A stretch of DNA of 64,000 nt from Collimonas sp. OK242. Its GTDB lineage: Bacteria; Pseudomonadota; Gammaproteobacteria; Burkholderiales; Burkholderiaceae_D. Below are positions 57,090 to 62,892 of the stretch, in pieces (positions within the stretch are counted from its first letter, which is position 1; each line of letters begins with the position of its first letter). Location of the stretch: positions 62,001 to 126,000 of the forward strand of contig NZ_FNOR01000010.1 of NCBI RefSeq assembly GCF_900107095.1, in the 5' to 3' direction. A program made the translations under genes and the position numbers. Under the pieces are notes generated by a model, which saw only the letters and a list, made by a program, of their open reading frames with translations, was not told the DNA's origin and made no database searches.

Positions 57090-58094
57090 TTACTGATTCG
57101 AATCGGCGCCGATGCCGATGACAGGCGCACTTTCCTGCTTGATACTGCGCGTCGAAAAAAACGCGGCAAAATTAAACACCGAACGCGGCAAGGTCGCCCA
57201 CAAAGTTGCGCCGACAATCAGCGCGCCGCCGATCCAGGACAGCGTACCGAGTTTTTCGCCCAGCCAAAAAGAAGCGAATAGCGCACCGAAAACCGGCTCG
57301 CTTCCCATCAACAGAGAAACCCGGGTGGGGTTGCTGCGCCGGACGCCATAGTTCTGTGCAAAAAAAGCAAATATCGTGCAAAACAACACCAGGTAAACCG
57401 TACTCACCCAGAAGCTGGGTTCGCTGGGCAGGGGCGGCAGGCCGCCCTGCATGAACAAGCCGGCAACCAGCAAACAGCCAAACCCCACCACCCCGGACTG
57501 CACCGCGGTCAAGGTCAGGTTGGACATGTTTTTATTGACCGTCAGGCGCTTGGTCATGACCATCATGAAGGCGCGCATCAAGGCCGCCGCCAGCATCAGG
57601 CCGTCTCCCGGATTGAAAGTCAGATCGCTGCCAATGGTCAGCAGCCAGGTGCCGAAGAGCGAGATGAAAGCCACCACGAACGCGCTGGCCTTAGGGCGCT
57701 GCGCCATCACCAGCCACTCCACGAACGGGGTAAAGACCACGCACAGGCTGATCAGGAAAGCGGCATTCGAGGCCTGGGTCAAGGCCACGCCGAAGGTCTC
57801 GCAAATGAAGATGGCAAGCAGAATCAGACCCAGCGGCAATCCCGCCCGCAACGCGGCCCTGCCTTCCGGCCTGGCCAGTTGACGCAAACTAGGTAGCAAC
57901 AATACGAAAGTCATGCAAAACCGAATCGCCACAAAACCCAGTACCGGGTAAAACACCAACGCATCCTTGGCCACACCATAGCTGGTACCCCACACTATCG
58001 CGACCAGCAATAACAGCAAATCGGCGATCCAGAGGCCTTTGGCGGAAGAATTGGCAGAGGATTTGGCAGAATCGCCGGCAGATAAATTTGTCAC
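57090..58094 (-). CDS. EamA/DMT-family exporter
   Basis: The 334-residue product has ten helices in two EamA repeats ('IVWGTSYGVAKDALVFYPVL' at the start, 'RVSLLMGSEPVFGALFASFW' near the end). DMT exporters such as RhtA export amino acids and analogues. It starts with GTG at 58092-58094; GGAG lies 9 bases upstream. It follows the dioxygenase gene but an intrinsic terminator stands between them and a 9-bp inverted repeat lies just upstream of the start, so it has its own promoter. Export of the dioxygenase product is inferred from position and from the similar IDO-exporter pairing in Bacillus thuringiensis. Confidence 0.88.
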   Translation of the reverse strand: MTNLSAGDSAKSSANSSAKGLWIADLLLLLVAIVWGTSYGVAKDALVFYPVLGFVAIRFCMTFVLLLPSLRQLARPEGRAALRAGLPLGLILLAIFICETFGVALTQASNAAFLISLCVVFTPFVEWLVMAQRPKASAFVVAFISLFGTWLLTIGSDLTFNPGDGLMLAAALMRAFMMVMTKRLTVNKNMSNLTLTAVQSGVVGFGCLLVAGLFMQGGLPPLPSEPSFWVSTVYLVLFCTIFAFFAQNYGVRRSNPTRVSLLMGSEPVFGALFASFWLGEKLGTLSWIGGALIVGATLWATLPRSVFNFAAFFSTRSIKQESAPVIGIGADSNQ

Positions 58095-58108
58095 TTCGCT
58101 TTACTCCA

Positions 58109-58129
58109 GATAGCGCTAACAGCGCTATC
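58109..58129. promoter_or_regulatory. Perfect 9-bp inverted repeat upstream of the DMT gene
   Basis: GATAGCGCT, 3 bases, then AGCGCTATC, 14 bases before the GTG start. No T-run follows on either strand, and the symmetry suits a dimeric repressor. It may instead be a hairpin in the 5' untranslated region. Confidence 0.5.
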
Positions 58130-58136
58130 AGTTAAG

Positions 58137-58173
58137 AAAAAAACGTTCCGCTTAGGTGGAGGCTGAGCGGAAC
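58137..58173 (-). terminator. Intrinsic terminator after the dioxygenase gene
   Basis: Arms GTTCCGCT and AGCGGAAC (58145-58152 and 58166-58173) with a 13-base loop are followed on the minus strand by CG and seven T. It lies 42 bases after the dioxygenase stop and ends the ArgG-like/dioxygenase transcript. Confidence 0.8.
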
Positions 58174-58214
58174 AAACGGCGGGAGCACCGAGGATATTGG
58201 TCAGGCCTGTTGCG

Positions 58215-58967
58215 CTAGGATATTCTGGTGTAGGCAATCACCAGTACATCTCTGAATGCCTCGCGTTTTTCTTCAAACGGCAACACCTTGGTCACCCCGT
58301 GCATGGTGCGGGCATCGTCAGCCAGCACCAAGTCCATAGGATCGGTCAAGGTATAACGGCACATCAGTTTGCCGGCAACATCGGTAATATAGGTTTCACC
58401 GCCGGCCACGTTGTGACGGCGCACCATCATGGTGACGATGTAATCGACGCCGTCGCGATGCAATCCTTCCGGCGTCGGATTGCCGGGCGCATGGGAACTG
58501 GCGCGTATCCGGTAAGGATGCAGGCGGATATCCCATTTGCCGCTGCCGCCCTCGACCTGGTCAAACACCAGCGCCAGAGACAGCAGCAAGCCGGACAGGA
58601 AAGGGTTATCGACAAAGTGCCGCTCCAGCGGCTCGAAATGACGCGCGACGTCACCATTGAGTTTATTGATGTAGCTCGGCTGTACGTAAGGTCCATGCGG
58701 CAGTTGCTGCAGCACGCCGTCGGCCGCGTCCAGCTCGAATGCACCGTAACGGCGGAATCGATAACTGCCGTTGTCGCCCATGTATTTATCTTGCGGCAGG
58801 TTGTTCCAGCAAGCCGCGAACTGGTTCCAGGCCGCAAGATCGACATCGCAGGCAGCTTGCACGGCGCGGCCGGGGAGCACGGTGAACAGCCGGCTGCGCA
58901 GCTCGCCGCTGAGATGATTAATGATGAGCGGCGCAATCTTGATTGGCGCCGAGGCCTCGATTTCCAT
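58215..58967 (-). CDS. BsmA/IDO-type Fe(II)/2-oxoglutarate dioxygenase
   Basis: A 250-residue dioxygenase of the 2OG-Fe_Oxy_2 family, which holds L-isoleucine-4-hydroxylase (IDO) and other free-amino-acid hydroxylases. Fe ligands are H160-x-D162 ('EGLHRDGVDYIVTMMVRR') and H213 ('DARTMHGVTKV'); an Arg near the C-terminus ('AYTR' or 'FRDV') would bind 2-oxoglutarate. The start ATG directly abuts the TAA of the ArgG-like gene, and GAGG in the end of that gene serves as ribosome site, so translation is coupled. The substrate is probably an amino acid or the product of the ligase. Confidence 0.88.
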   Translation of the reverse strand: MEIEASAPIKIAPLIINHLSGELRSRLFTVLPGRAVQAACDVDLAAWNQFAACWNNLPQDKYMGDNGSYRFRRYGAFELDAADGVLQQLPHGPYVQPSYINKLNGDVARHFEPLERHFVDNPFLSGLLLSLALVFDQVEGGSGKWDIRLHPYRIRASSHAPGNPTPEGLHRDGVDYIVTMMVRRHNVAGGETYITDVAGKLMCRYTLTDPMDLVLADDARTMHGVTKVLPFEEKREAFRDVLVIAYTRIS

Positions 58968-60206
58968 TTAATTTTCCTCGGCCAGCAGCTTGCTCGCGTC
59001 CAATACAGAATGGGAAGACAACGACAAGTGACGGCTGGAACGTTGCGCGGCAATTTCTTTTTCCCAGCTATCGCGGTCGGTCAGGTACAGCGGCGCATCG
59101 GCCCGGATCGCGCAGACATCGGCGGCGCCGGCACGCAAACGGTAATTGACAGTGCCGCTGACATGCTGCGCGGTTTCGAGGATGAAGCGGTCTGTCGCTG
59201 CGCGCAACGGTGTGAACCAGCGGCCTTCGATCGCTTCGCGCACCCACAGCTGTTCCATCTTGAGTTTTTCGCGCAGCAGTTCGGCGTCCAGCACTGCCGT
59301 TTCCAGGTGTCGATACGCTTCCAGCAAAGCCATCGCGGCCGGCGCTTCGCGCACTTCCAGCACCTTCTCGCCCTGCTCCAGGTGTTCCAGGCCGCAATAA
59401 CGGCCTATGCCAAACGCACCGACGCGCTGGTTAAGACGCGCGATCAATTCCAGCAACGGCAAAGCCTCGCCATCGATGGCAACCGGACAGCCTGCATCAA
59501 ACCTGAGCGAGATTTCTACGCTGGCAGGCGCCGGATCGAGCGCGGCGGTCCAATCAAACAGCGATTCCGGCACCCAGAACGATTCCGGATTATCGAGCGA
59601 ACCGGATTCGAATTCACGGCACCACAGATTGGCGTCGCCGCTGATGCCGCGTGCCTGGAAGTGCGGCAGGCCGGCAGCGCGCAAGGCTTCGATTTTCTCT
59701 TCGCGCGAAATCGCGGTGTATTCATATGGCGTGCCGTAATAACCGGCATAGCCGAGTTGGGCGATCGCGCCATTCAAACGACGCAGCGTGTTCTGCGACT
59801 GATTGGCGGTATGGACGATGGCGTTGCAGCCCAGGCGCAACGCGGTTTCAACCGCGAAGCGGGCGATGATAGGACGCGACAGCGACGAACTGATCGGATA
59901 GATGCCCATATACTTGGCATTGGCGCGAATCGCCGGCAGCACGGCATCCTCGGCAAACGCTTGCCGGCCATCGATCACCAGCAATTCGGCGCCAAAATGC
60001 GAGGTGATCTGTTGCAGGTCCGCGGCGTCGACGCCCTCGCCCAGATCGACAGTCAGCGCCGTGACGCGGCAACCGCTGTCGACCAGGCATTTCAAGGCGT
60101 AAGTGCTATCCAGTCCGCCACTGAATAAAGTCAGGACATGCTCGCACTGGCCGGCGACCAGTTTCAGGTCGTCGATACTGCGTATTCTTTTTAGCGGCTG
60201 AATCAT
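58968..60206 (-). CDS. Argininosuccinate-synthase-like ligase (ArgG paralogue)
   Basis: The 412-residue product is built like ArgG, which ligates citrulline and aspartate via an adenylate. The ATP loop 'SGGLDST' is at 29-35, and 'ISGDANLWCREFESGSLDNP' matches the ArgG 'D.NLW.R..E.G.L..P' segment. But the aspartate-binding box of ArgG (G-K-G-N-D-Q-V-R-F) is here replaced by 'TANQSQNTLRRLNGAI', so the nucleophile or acceptor is probably not the usual one. The ATG at 60206 (GGAG 5 bases upstream) is chosen over 60230. Divergent from a LysR gene. Not the house-keeping argG by motif and context. Confidence 0.85.
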   Translation of the reverse strand: MIQPLKRIRSIDDLKLVAGQCEHVLTLFSGGLDSTYALKCLVDSGCRVTALTVDLGEGVDAADLQQITSHFGAELLVIDGRQAFAEDAVLPAIRANAKYMGIYPISSSLSRPIIARFAVETALRLGCNAIVHTANQSQNTLRRLNGAIAQLGYAGYYGTPYEYTAISREEKIEALRAAGLPHFQARGISGDANLWCREFESGSLDNPESFWVPESLFDWTAALDPAPASVEISLRFDAGCPVAIDGEALPLLELIARLNQRVGAFGIGRYCGLEHLEQGEKVLEVREAPAAMALLEAYRHLETAVLDAELLREKLKMEQLWVREAIEGRWFTPLRAATDRFILETAQHVSGTVNYRLRAGAADVCAIRADAPLYLTDRDSWEKEIAAQRSSRHLSLSSHSVLDASKLLAEEN

Positions 60207-60266
60207 AGGCGCTCCGGTACTGGATGGCATGAGTGAATTAATAAGGACAAAATAATGACGAATACC

Positions 60267-60340
60267 TCGACAAATACGAATAAAGACATCGTTATCGATA
60301 GTTATTATGTTTTATTCCGGCAAATACGATAATCTATCAA
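60267..60340. promoter_or_regulatory. Putative control region between ArgG-like and LysR genes
   Basis: Two copies of CAAATACGA start at 60271 and 60321, exactly 50 bases apart, with a palindrome TATCGATA (60293-60300) between. The stretch is AT-rich. It is where a divergent LysR regulator would bind. Regulator binding is not shown. Confidence 0.4.
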
Positions 60341-60372
60341 TTCAGAACAACACTTATGCGCGACGGGAATAA

Positions 60373-61326
60373 ATGGGAGCTAACCGATATATCAAGCTGA
60401 TGCCTGACATGGCGGTGTTTGTGCGGGTGGTGGAAACCGGCAGCTTTTCGACGGCGGCCCTCGAGCTGGGCATGACGCCCTCGGCTGTCAGCCGCCAGGT
60501 ATCGCGTCTCGAACAGGCATTATCGGTCAGATTACTAGAGCGCACCACGCGCAAGCTGCGCCTGAGCGAATCCGGCAGCGAGGCTTATCAGCGCTGCCTG
60601 GAAATGGTGAACGCGGCCAAGGCGGCGATGGACGTCGCCGATAAATTCGTGGCGGTGCCGCAGGGCCTGCTGCGGGTCGGCATGCCGAAAGCCTTCGGCA
60701 AATCGGTGGTTACTCCCCTGATACCAGGTTTCCTGGAAAAATATCCGCAAGTCGATGTGCAACTTATTCTGACCGATCGCCACGTCGACTTGATCAATGA
60801 CGATGCCGACCTGGTGATCCGCATCACCAGCCAGCCAGCCGACGGCCTGGTGGCGCGGCCGCTGATGTCGATCGACCAGGTGCTGTGCGCTACCCCCAGC
60901 TATCTGGCCCAGCACGGCACACCCAAACAGCCGCAAGACCTGTGCGGCCACAGCTGCCTTTACCTCGGCGAAACCGCGGGAGATTCCGACTGGCGCTTCA
61001 TGCGCCAGGGTGAAACCACCATCATCAAGGTCAGCGGACGCTATGTCGTCAATCACAGTGAAGCGCGGCTGGAAGGCGTGCTGCAAAATCTGGGTATCGG
61101 CTGCCTGCCCTATTTCATCGTGCGCAACGCCCTTGAGCAAGGCCTGGTAAAAGCCGTGCTCACCGATTGGGAATTCGTCGCCGCCTATCAGGGCACAGCC
61201 TTCATACAATACCTGCCGACCCGTTATCTGGCGCCCAAAATGCGGGTATTCATCGATCATCTGGCCAGCCATATGGAGGCCGACCTGAAACCCCTGGACC
61301 GGCGGCGGCTGGCGGCCGGCAAATGA
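60373..61326 (+). CDS. LysR-family regulator, divergent from the ArgG-like operon
   Basis: A 317-residue CrgA-type LTTR. HTH: 'FVRVVETGSFSTAALELGMT' and 'VSRQVSRLEQALSVRLLERT'. The effector domain begins 'LLRVGMPKAFGKSVVTPLIP'. It is transcribed away from the ArgG-like/dioxygenase operon, the usual geometry for an LTTR and its target. GGGAATAA precedes the ATG. Confidence 0.9.
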   Translation: MGANRYIKLMPDMAVFVRVVETGSFSTAALELGMTPSAVSRQVSRLEQALSVRLLERTTRKLRLSESGSEAYQRCLEMVNAAKAAMDVADKFVAVPQGLLRVGMPKAFGKSVVTPLIPGFLEKYPQVDVQLILTDRHVDLINDDADLVIRITSQPADGLVARPLMSIDQVLCATPSYLAQHGTPKQPQDLCGHSCLYLGETAGDSDWRFMRQGETTIIKVSGRYVVNHSEARLEGVLQNLGIGCLPYFIVRNALEQGLVKAVLTDWEFVAAYQGTAFIQYLPTRYLAPKMRVFIDHLASHMEADLKPLDRRRLAAGK

Positions 61327-61947: not shown

Positions 61948-62892
61948 ATGTCCACCTTTGAAGGCATCTGGGTTCCCCTCGTCACGCCTTTCCGACAAGG
62001 CAAACTCGATCTTTACAGTGCGCAGCAACTAGCCCTGAGCTTGTCCGCTGCCGGCGTGCACGGCCTGGTGGCCTGCGGCACTACCGGCGAAGCGGCGACA
62101 TTGAACGAGCATGAGCAAGACAGGATGTTGTGCGGCGTGATGGAAGCCGTGCAACACCGTTGCCCCGTTGTGATGGGCGTCAGCGGCAGCGACACACGGG
62201 TAGTCGCGGAAAAAATCGCGCGCCTGAACGCACTGCGGCCAGCCGGTTTCCTGGTCTCGGCGCCGTCTTATGTGCGCCCCTCGCAAGAAGGCATACGCTT
62301 GCACTTCGAGGCGGTGGCGAACGCGGCCGAGAGTCCGGTCATCCTGTACAACATTCCGGCCAGGACCGGCGTCAATATTGATGTCGCCACCGTGATCGCA
62401 CTGGAACGCCACGCGAATATCGCGGCAGTCAAGGAGTGCGGCGGCAATCTGGCGCAGACCATGGAATTGATCAACCACACGGATCTGAACATCTTGTGCG
62501 GCGATGACGCCTTGTTGTTCAACACGCTCTGCCTGGGTGGGCATGGCGCCATTTCCGCCGCCGCGCATATACGGCCGGACTTGTTTGTGCATCTGTTTGA
62601 ACTGGTGCGCGCCGGACAAATCGGCCCGGCGCGGACCCTGTTCAGGCAGCTGTTGCCGATGATACAGCTGCTGTTTTCGGAGCCGAATCCCGGCCCCGTG
62701 AAAGCTGCCCTGGCCATGCAAGGGCAGATGCTGGACGAACTGCGCCTGCCAATGACGCCTATGTCCGCGCCGGGTCGCCTCAAACTGGCCAAGGCGCTGG
62801 AAAAACTGAAAGCGATCCCGATTGCCGGGAAAGCTGCGAAGTCCGCATTCTCCGTCGCCGGCGAATCCAGGCTGCTCGGTCTTGTGCGATGA
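61948..62892 (+). CDS. dapA: 4-hydroxy-tetrahydrodipicolinate synthase family aldolase (DapA-like)
   Basis: The 314-residue product is a DHDPS/NAL-family class I aldolase. Key residues match E. coli DapA offset by one: T46 ('GTTGE'), Y134 and R139 ('LYNIPARTGV') and Schiff-base lysine K162 ('IAAVKECGGN'). It condenses pyruvate and aspartate semialdehyde to start lysine and diaminopimelate synthesis, if it is the true DapA. The extra ~20 C-terminal residues are unusual. It is followed after 7 bases by a ParA-like gene, so translation may be coupled. Confidence 0.85.
   Translation: MSTFEGIWVPLVTPFRQGKLDLYSAQQLALSLSAAGVHGLVACGTTGEAATLNEHEQDRMLCGVMEAVQHRCPVVMGVSGSDTRVVAEKIARLNALRPAGFLVSAPSYVRPSQEGIRLHFEAVANAAESPVILYNIPARTGVNIDVATVIALERHANIAAVKECGGNLAQTMELINHTDLNILCGDDALLFNTLCLGGHGAISAAAHIRPDLFVHLFELVRAGQIGPARTLFRQLLPMIQLLFSEPNPGPVKAALAMQGQMLDELRLPMTPMSAPGRLKLAKALEKLKAIPIAGKAAKSAFSVAGESRLLGLVR

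Follow-up and report, generated by a model that had tools for sequence, protein, structure and literature searches.

Why would a bacterium keep a ligase that resembles argininosuccinate synthase (ASS, the product of argG) next to an amino-acid dioxygenase, an exporter and a regulator? These four genes stand together in Collimonas sp. OK242, in a stretch of 64,000 nucleotides from contig NZ_FNOR01000010.1 (referred to here as the window; Table 1). A preliminary description of the locus gave the gene order, the gene families, the TAA-ATG coupling of ligase and dioxygenase, the divergent LysR gene and the motif TANQSQNTLRR in the ligase, all of which are borne out by the coordinates of the open reading frames (ORFs) and by Pfam. 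It attributed to the ligase an ArgG chemistry that would join an amino acid to another molecule. The replacement of the aspartate box that it pointed to stands, however the chemistry should be revised from conjugation to amide dehydration, because the residues for aspartate have gone, those with which the nitrile synthetase ArtA contacts the amide are retained, and ArtA is nested in the bacterial ligase family. The explanation proposed here, to which we give a probability of roughly 0.6, is that the locus would be a complete small cassette for the synthesis and export of a free amino acid that is oxidised and bears a nitrile. This figure and the grades of likelihood given in words below are judgements and were not computed. 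Locus and genome handles in brackets (L and G numbers) are our own.

The ligase, argininosuccinate synthase and ArtA

The ligase does not represent a duplicate argininosuccinate synthase, since a true ArgG is encoded elsewhere in the genome, the aspartate box is missing and the protein is a member of argG_rel. It scores 619.8 bits with the NCBIfam model argG_rel (NF038212), for which the curated cut-off is 425, and lies below the cut-offs of all five ArgG equivalog models listed (227.6 against 334, 218 against 268.2, 216.7 against 512, 122.4 against 603 and 57.4 against 657). With 878 bits the true ArgG (G000:C14) exceeds its cut-off of 657; it lies directly behind an ORF that we take to be argF. 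The ligase is thus not the only argG of this genome. Residues 141-151 of the ligase read TANQSQNTLRR, and the TGKGND box for aspartate and ATP is replaced and reads NQSQNT. In the numbering of human ASS1, the aspartate site is presumably formed by T119 and D124 and the citrulline site by Y87, S92, N123, R127, S180 and E270, plus S189 and Y282. The alignment indicates that the window ligase keeps Y87, S92, N123, R127, S180 and E270 and loses T119 and D124. This suggests a citrulline site that keeps room for a free amino acid while aspartate is absent, a pocket reading that is not clean as S189 and Y282 are altered. The ligase has the same fold, the same ATP site and most of the citrulline-site residues of ArgG but differs from it by the replaced aspartate box, the change of Y282 to R and the ArgG model scores below cut-off.

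The nearest PDB chains of the ligase are 9leh (345.7 bits) and 9lei (344.8 bits), both named 'nitrile synthetase', whereas the best true ASS reaches 168.7 bits. A 2026 preprint (PMC13060819) states that ArtA and NitB carry out the amide-to-nitrile step only, and gives Q146, S197 and D199 as the amide-contact residues of ArtA, where Zeng et al. are cited. A numbering offset of 29 is the only one of 60 tried that puts Q146, S197 and D199 onto 9leh, and for this reason we infer that 9leh is ArtA. The window ligase has Q146, S197 and D199 at numbers identical to those of ArtA. Both S197 and D199 are also present in true ASS, therefore Q146 carries the weight of the comparison. In ASS1 numbering, the window ligase and 9leh have in common the changes of T119 to N, K121 to S, G122 to Q, S189 to E and Y282 to R, and they differ at G120 (Q in the window, L in 9leh) and D124 (T and S, respectively).

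These changes are found throughout the aligned loci, which were mostly chosen by similarity to the window and whose residue counts are not an unbiased sample. Among 97 aligned rows, Q stands at G122 in 95 (with one G and one H). S at K121, R at Y282 and E at S189 are each found in 96 rows and N at T119 in 93, and N123, R127, S180 and D182 are present in 97/97. K, G, D and Y, each of which occurs in a single row at these positions, match the sequence of L002, a true ArgG that is one of the 97 rows. The alignment omits L028, a broken ORF of 246 aa, and L001 and L010, which are copies of the window.

Two trees were made of the ligases, a quick one with 92 of 102 rows (the near-identical Collimonas rows L004-L009 and L011-L013 and the true ArgG L002 were omitted) and a careful one with 48 of the 102. 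In both, 9leh falls inside the argG_rel family and the three ASS chains fall outside. In the careful tree 9leh groups with three rhizobial plasmid copies and a fused copy (L015) with support of 100/99, and a 12-row set that holds 9leh and copies from Bradyrhizobium, Vibrio, Photobacterium, Amphritea and Microbulbifer has support of 99/93. The identity between 9leh and the Rhizobium plasmid copy (L099) is 63.5%. Its position makes 9leh, the only member that has been characterised, appear to derive from the bacterial cassette, probably by transfer to a fungus. As the deep bacterial branches have no settled order in the trees, the case for nitrile formation in the window's branch is carried by the kept residues together with the nesting.

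Auranthine, according to PMC11637627, is a Penicillium metabolite that bears an aliphatic nitrile, and according to PMC3397440 glutamine was proposed as a building block of close auranthine relatives. ArtA and NitB are of the same family as the window ligase and have the same amide-contact residues, but ArtA serves a fungal nonribosomal peptide synthetase (NRPS) product, auranthine, whereas the Collimonas ligase sits with a dioxygenase, an exporter and a regulator. To our knowledge enzymatic nitriles are rare, and an ArgG-like route to them is known solely via ArtA and NitB. Among the open-access literature matches listed, no paper on a bacterial set of ligase, dioxygenase and exporter was found. 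The enzyme class itself is known through ArtA and NitB, but the bacterial cassette with a dioxygenase and an exporter is apparently undescribed in the open-access literature searched.

The dioxygenase and the conservation of the cassette

In the dioxygenase, H170-x-D172, H223 and R239 are invariant in all 28 aligned ligase-linked sequences. H170, D172 and H223 are presumably the iron triad and R239 presumably the Arg that binds 2-oxoglutarate. The score with the model of the isoleucine dioxygenase HilB is 32.3 bits, far below the equivalog cut-off of 350. Seven PDB matches include the TqaL chain 7eeh, and the best ones have no function in their name. Cyclopropanation by BelL/HrmJ and aziridination by TqaL are reactions of relatives of this fold, as set out in PMC10764440. 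The cassette enzyme shares the fold family and the Fe and 2-oxoglutarate residues of the PF10014 amino-acid dioxygenases (IDO, HilB, TqaL, BelL/HrmJ) but forms its own branch. In a tree of 65 ligase-linked dioxygenases (window included) and 18 unlinked relatives the two groups are separated with two label changes, where the starred branches force one. The 18 were drawn from 57 genomes that have the dioxygenase without argG_rel, and near-identical Collimonas rows and short pieces were omitted. We infer that in the cassette the dioxygenase is the oxidase of a free amino acid.

The dioxygenase by itself is ruled out as a marker of the cassette, since a relative of it (E <=1e-20) is present in 59 of 300 genomes of the order and argG_rel in 2 of 300, apparently of the same draw. 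It was also observed that the PF10014-type dioxygenases without argG_rel, in 57 of these 300 genomes, include some that group with 3pl0, a structure of unassigned function.

The conservation of the gene set was followed in named loci, which are the best 80 of 147 ligase relatives. A PF10014 dioxygenase lies <=1.5 kb from the ligase in 56 of the 80, and an EamA gene is present too in 53; a divergent LysR gene adjoins the ligase in 38, and an EamA gene without a dioxygenase was seen in none of the 80. The dioxygenase and the exporter of the window served as blastp queries for those of the other loci, a search that may miss distant ones. The 53 loci with the full trio belong to the Betaproteobacteria (18), Gammaproteobacteria (23), Alphaproteobacteria (1), Cyanobacteriota (1), Myxococcota (1) and Actinomycetota (9), and thus to four phyla, Pseudomonadota, Cyanobacteriota, Myxococcota and Actinomycetota. 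The trio is therefore conserved well beyond this strain, and its grouping is not due to chance. The preliminary description had named two findings that would refute it, a sole argG with ordinary activity and a trio confined to this strain, and neither applies. There is good support for its view that the locus serves a small metabolite, an amino acid that is modified and exported.

The layout of the genes varies. On three plasmids typed conjugative, from Rhizobium, Agrobacterium and Mesorhizobium, the order is exporter, ligase, dioxygenase. A conjugative plasmid of Bradyrhizobium has ligase and dioxygenase together with an EamA gene ~8 kb off, and the plasmid record of Burkholderia cenocepacia has no annotation at the matching place; these layouts come from five of 13 plasmid records. 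In two genomes of another class the ligase and the dioxygenase are fused in one ORF (L015, 1459-3438, 660 aa; L016) with an EamA gene directly upstream. The rearrangement and the fusion argue that the genes of the cassette work together. Protein distances are correlated between ligase and dioxygenase (0.56), ligase and EamA (0.87) and dioxygenase and EamA (0.51), each value being reached in 0 of 5000 permutations for 38 loci thinned from 58 rows. The ligases on the rhizobial plasmids typed conjugative (L099, L100, L101) are ~63% identical to 9leh, which suggests a transfer from bacteria to a fungus.

Of 14 further genomes of the genus, 9 carry argG_rel. None of 45 genomes that represent other genera of the family and order has it, and a draw of 398 genomes from the phylum gave 5, with the window's own genome and one congener among them. 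The gene is thus rare and patchy, as expected of a cassette that is gained or lost.

Proposed pathway and its alternatives

How would these proteins act together? The substrate of the ligase would be an L-amino acid in free form that carries a side-chain amide, L-glutamine being the likeliest, and it would occupy the former citrulline pocket. ATP would adenylate the amide oxygen to give an AMP-imidate. With no bound aspartate to attack this intermediate, AMP would be eliminated and a nitrile left, so that glutamine would give 2-amino-4-cyanobutanoate. Before or after this step the dioxygenase would oxidise the carbon chain, most simply by hydroxylation. The EamA protein would export the product, and the LysR protein would control the divergent transcript of ligase and dioxygenase. 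The parts of this proposal differ in strength. The conversion of an amide to a nitrile by dehydration is quite probable, and hydroxylation by the dioxygenase appears somewhat likely. That glutamine is the substrate has about even odds. The pocket residues by themselves do not separate Gln from Asn. A role of the product as antimetabolite or signal is a guess.

If the proposal is true, it provides a testable three-gene route to new cyano-amino acids, accounts for a common 'not ArgG' annotation and supplies a bacterial source for the auranthine enzyme. NCBIfam labels argG_rel merely 'argininosuccinate synthase-related', though it is found across bacteria, and the probable function of the cassette has so far been masked by the resemblance of the ligase to an enzyme of arginine synthesis.

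Several observations weigh against the cassette reading. The window ligase is just 44.8% identical to 9leh. Two more citrulline contacts are altered (S189 to E and Y282 to R), although 9leh has the same changes. The correlated distances may be largely due to shared ancestry. There is no dioxygenase in 24 of the 80 named loci, and thus the ligase does not need one; 21 of the 24 are from actinomycetes, and 15 of these 21 have an adenylation-domain motif. Perhaps these dioxygenase-less actinomycete loci with the adenylation motif represent a second use of the same chemistry. For the exporter, four Collimonas genomes that lack the cassette but have a 64-nt element of the dioxygenase-EamA gap (described below) keep an EamA homologue that is 75-79% identical, so the exporter may serve another purpose. 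The Collimonas dioxygenase and EamA genes are parted by a predicted terminator-like hairpin, and for this reason only the ligase and the dioxygenase are tightly coupled and the exporter is possibly controlled apart. The data on the element weaken the view of EamA as a plain third gene of one Collimonas transcript.

It was observed for the actinomycete ligases (L064, L067-L096) that His replaces Tyr87 in 31/31 and that 21 of the 31 are without a dioxygenase. By Pfam, L064 encodes an adenylation-carrier protein and L067 encodes an ATP-grasp protein.

In a narrower version of the proposed pathway the dioxygenase would be a beta-hydroxylase of free Gln, free Asn or the nitrile, and its product an antimetabolite that resembles Ser or Thr. 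The idea is tentative, possible but on the unlikely side, and it comes from two clusters in which a ligase and a linked dioxygenase accompany NRPS proteins. In Salmonella enterica subsp. diarizonae (L044) the cluster contains an NRPS, the ligase, the dioxygenase and a divergent seryl-tRNA synthetase, and also, by eye, a gene for a putative phosphopantetheinyl transferase; upstream of it (L130) lies a further NRPS-like protein that ends in a reductase domain. In Burkholderia cenocepacia (L097, 7983-16480) the ligase is found with a TauD enzyme, a PF10014 dioxygenase, an AMP-binding protein and, by eye, an NRPS-like ORF. The adenylation codes, read by hand and weak as evidence, are Ser-like for the first domain of L044 and Thr-like for L097, which gives a weak hint at a beta-hydroxy amino acid. 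However, there are only two such clusters, the second domain of L044 is Gly-like, the code of a Mesorhizobium NRPS (L101) does not look Ser/Thr-like, and the substrates of the NRPSs may be unmodified Ser or Thr. Relatives of the fold also form aziridines or cyclopropanes, as described in PMC10764440. The Salmonella genome has two seryl-tRNA synthetases, of which one lies inside the NRPS cluster. A duplicate tRNA synthetase in a biosynthetic cluster can be a self-resistance gene, and it is possible that this second copy is one.

A wider speculation, which we hold to be doubtful, extends the beta-hydroxylation idea to the whole family. In it, a horizontally mobile cassette present in at least four phyla would yield a secreted, hydroxylated cyano-amino acid that imitates Ser or Thr. 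Such products would represent an unrecognised class of exported antimetabolites, in some cases incorporated into NRPS peptides, where an extra seryl-tRNA synthetase would confer self-resistance, and the fungal nitrile synthetase would have been acquired from the cassette. The beta-ethynylserine (bes) pathway is among the nearest known systems and yields a small Thr-like amino acid with a triple bond that is finished by a 2-oxoglutarate dioxygenase. It differs in that the alkyne arises via halogenase chemistry and no ArgG-like enzyme takes part.

Conjugation, as in the earlier proposal, would mean that an ASS-like ligase activates citrulline, or a different amino acid with a ureido or amide group, and couples it to an amine other than aspartate, with the conjugate being exported. 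The ASS fold, the ATP site and most citrulline-site residues are kept, and a new nucleophile would likewise alter the aspartate box. The altered box, however, has N, S, Q, N and R in common with 9leh, which is nested in the family, and together with the lost aspartate residues and the kept ArtA residues this makes conjugation unlikely. A general partner gene is also unlikely to exist. The commonest other neighbours are a group with adenylation domains, found in 14 loci, and clusters headed by Vibrio or Collimonas loci, each of them in <=10 loci, in a ranking that leaves out the ligase, EamA, dioxygenase and LysR genes and antisense shadows.

With amide dehydration kept as the ligase reaction, the dioxygenase could instead close a ring or desaturate, and the product would be, for example, a cyclopropane or an unsaturated cyano-amino acid. 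BelL/HrmJ and TqaL are precedents, again from PMC10764440, and the TqaL chain is among the seven PDB matches, but the sequence holds no pointer to such a reaction and the nameless function of the best PDB matches gives none; this outcome is distinctly improbable. An ordinary extra argininosuccinate synthase for arginine with unrelated neighbours is scarcely credible and is ruled out here in spite of the Pfam ASS domains (Arginosuc_synth 93.3 bits, Arginosuc_syn_C 126.5 bits), by the true ArgG elsewhere in the genome, the NCBIfam cut-offs, the lost aspartate box and the conserved trio.

Control regions and neighbouring genes

The coordinates of the locus are collected in Table 1; all four proteins score above their Pfam cut-offs. 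The stop codon TAA of the ligase abuts the ATG of the dioxygenase with zero gap.

Table 1. Genes and intergenic features of the ligase locus, in positions of the window
Feature	Position	Strand	Basis
EamA (drug/metabolite transporter, DMT) exporter, 334 aa	57090..58094	-	PF00892, two EamA domains (two stretches), 119.6 bits
Conserved hairpin and terminator-like hairpin with T run, dioxygenase-EamA gap	58137..58200	-	candidate attenuator of the exporter, or small RNA
Fe(II)/2-oxoglutarate dioxygenase, 250 aa, BsmA/IDO fold family	58215..58967	-	PF10014 (2OG-Fe_Oxy_2), 226.7 bits (gathering cut-off 23.1)
ArgG-related ligase, 420 aa	58968..60230	-	NF038212 argG_rel; putative ATP-dependent nitrile synthetase
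Ligase/LysR intergenic control region	60231..60372	.	nearly invariant block; putative function
LysR-type regulator, 317 aa, divergent from ligase	60373..61326	+	PF03466, 143.4 bits; PF00126, 76 bits

In the gap between the ligase and LysR genes a block at ~60304-60355 is nearly invariant in 7 Collimonas sequences and is likely a LysR binding region. The gap between the dioxygenase and EamA genes is 120 bp long. It contains the 64-nt element, a hairpin that is followed by the terminator-like hairpin with a T run, and after it a palindrome up against the ribosome site of EamA; the fold z-score for 58098-58190 is -3.59. The element may be a small RNA or an attenuator. A scan of promoter-like and terminator-like sites gave no excess over shuffles (2 against 2.1, and 7 against 5.6 with a standard deviation of 2.4, respectively), with a loop limit of 8 that misses the longer-looped hairpin of this gap. 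No Rfam family was found in the gap, where one match on the opposite strand scores 15.8 bits against a gathering score of 46.5.

The element is strongly conserved in Collimonas. At E <=0.01, 13 of the 14 further Collimonas genomes have one copy each, and there was no match in 45 genomes outside the genus. A core of ~30 nt is nearly invariant; among 145 genomes drawn from the family the 33-nt core was found in 7, each of them a Collimonas genome. In the four Collimonas genomes without argG_rel mentioned above (G005, G006, G007, G013) it lies 3' of the EamA homologue, not 5', and no ligase or dioxygenase match was found in these four 3-kb element loci.

Two neighbouring genes were rejected as members of the cassette, a dapA-like gene (61948-62892), with a match in 5 of 6 named Collimonas loci and in no other listed genus, and a glutathione S-transferase (GST) gene, found in 6 of 6 named Collimonas loci and in no other listed genus. 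The GC content and GC3 of the trio match those of the neighbouring genes, so base composition gives no sign of a recent foreign arrival. The closest named relative of the ligase is that of C. antrihumi, with 97% identity.

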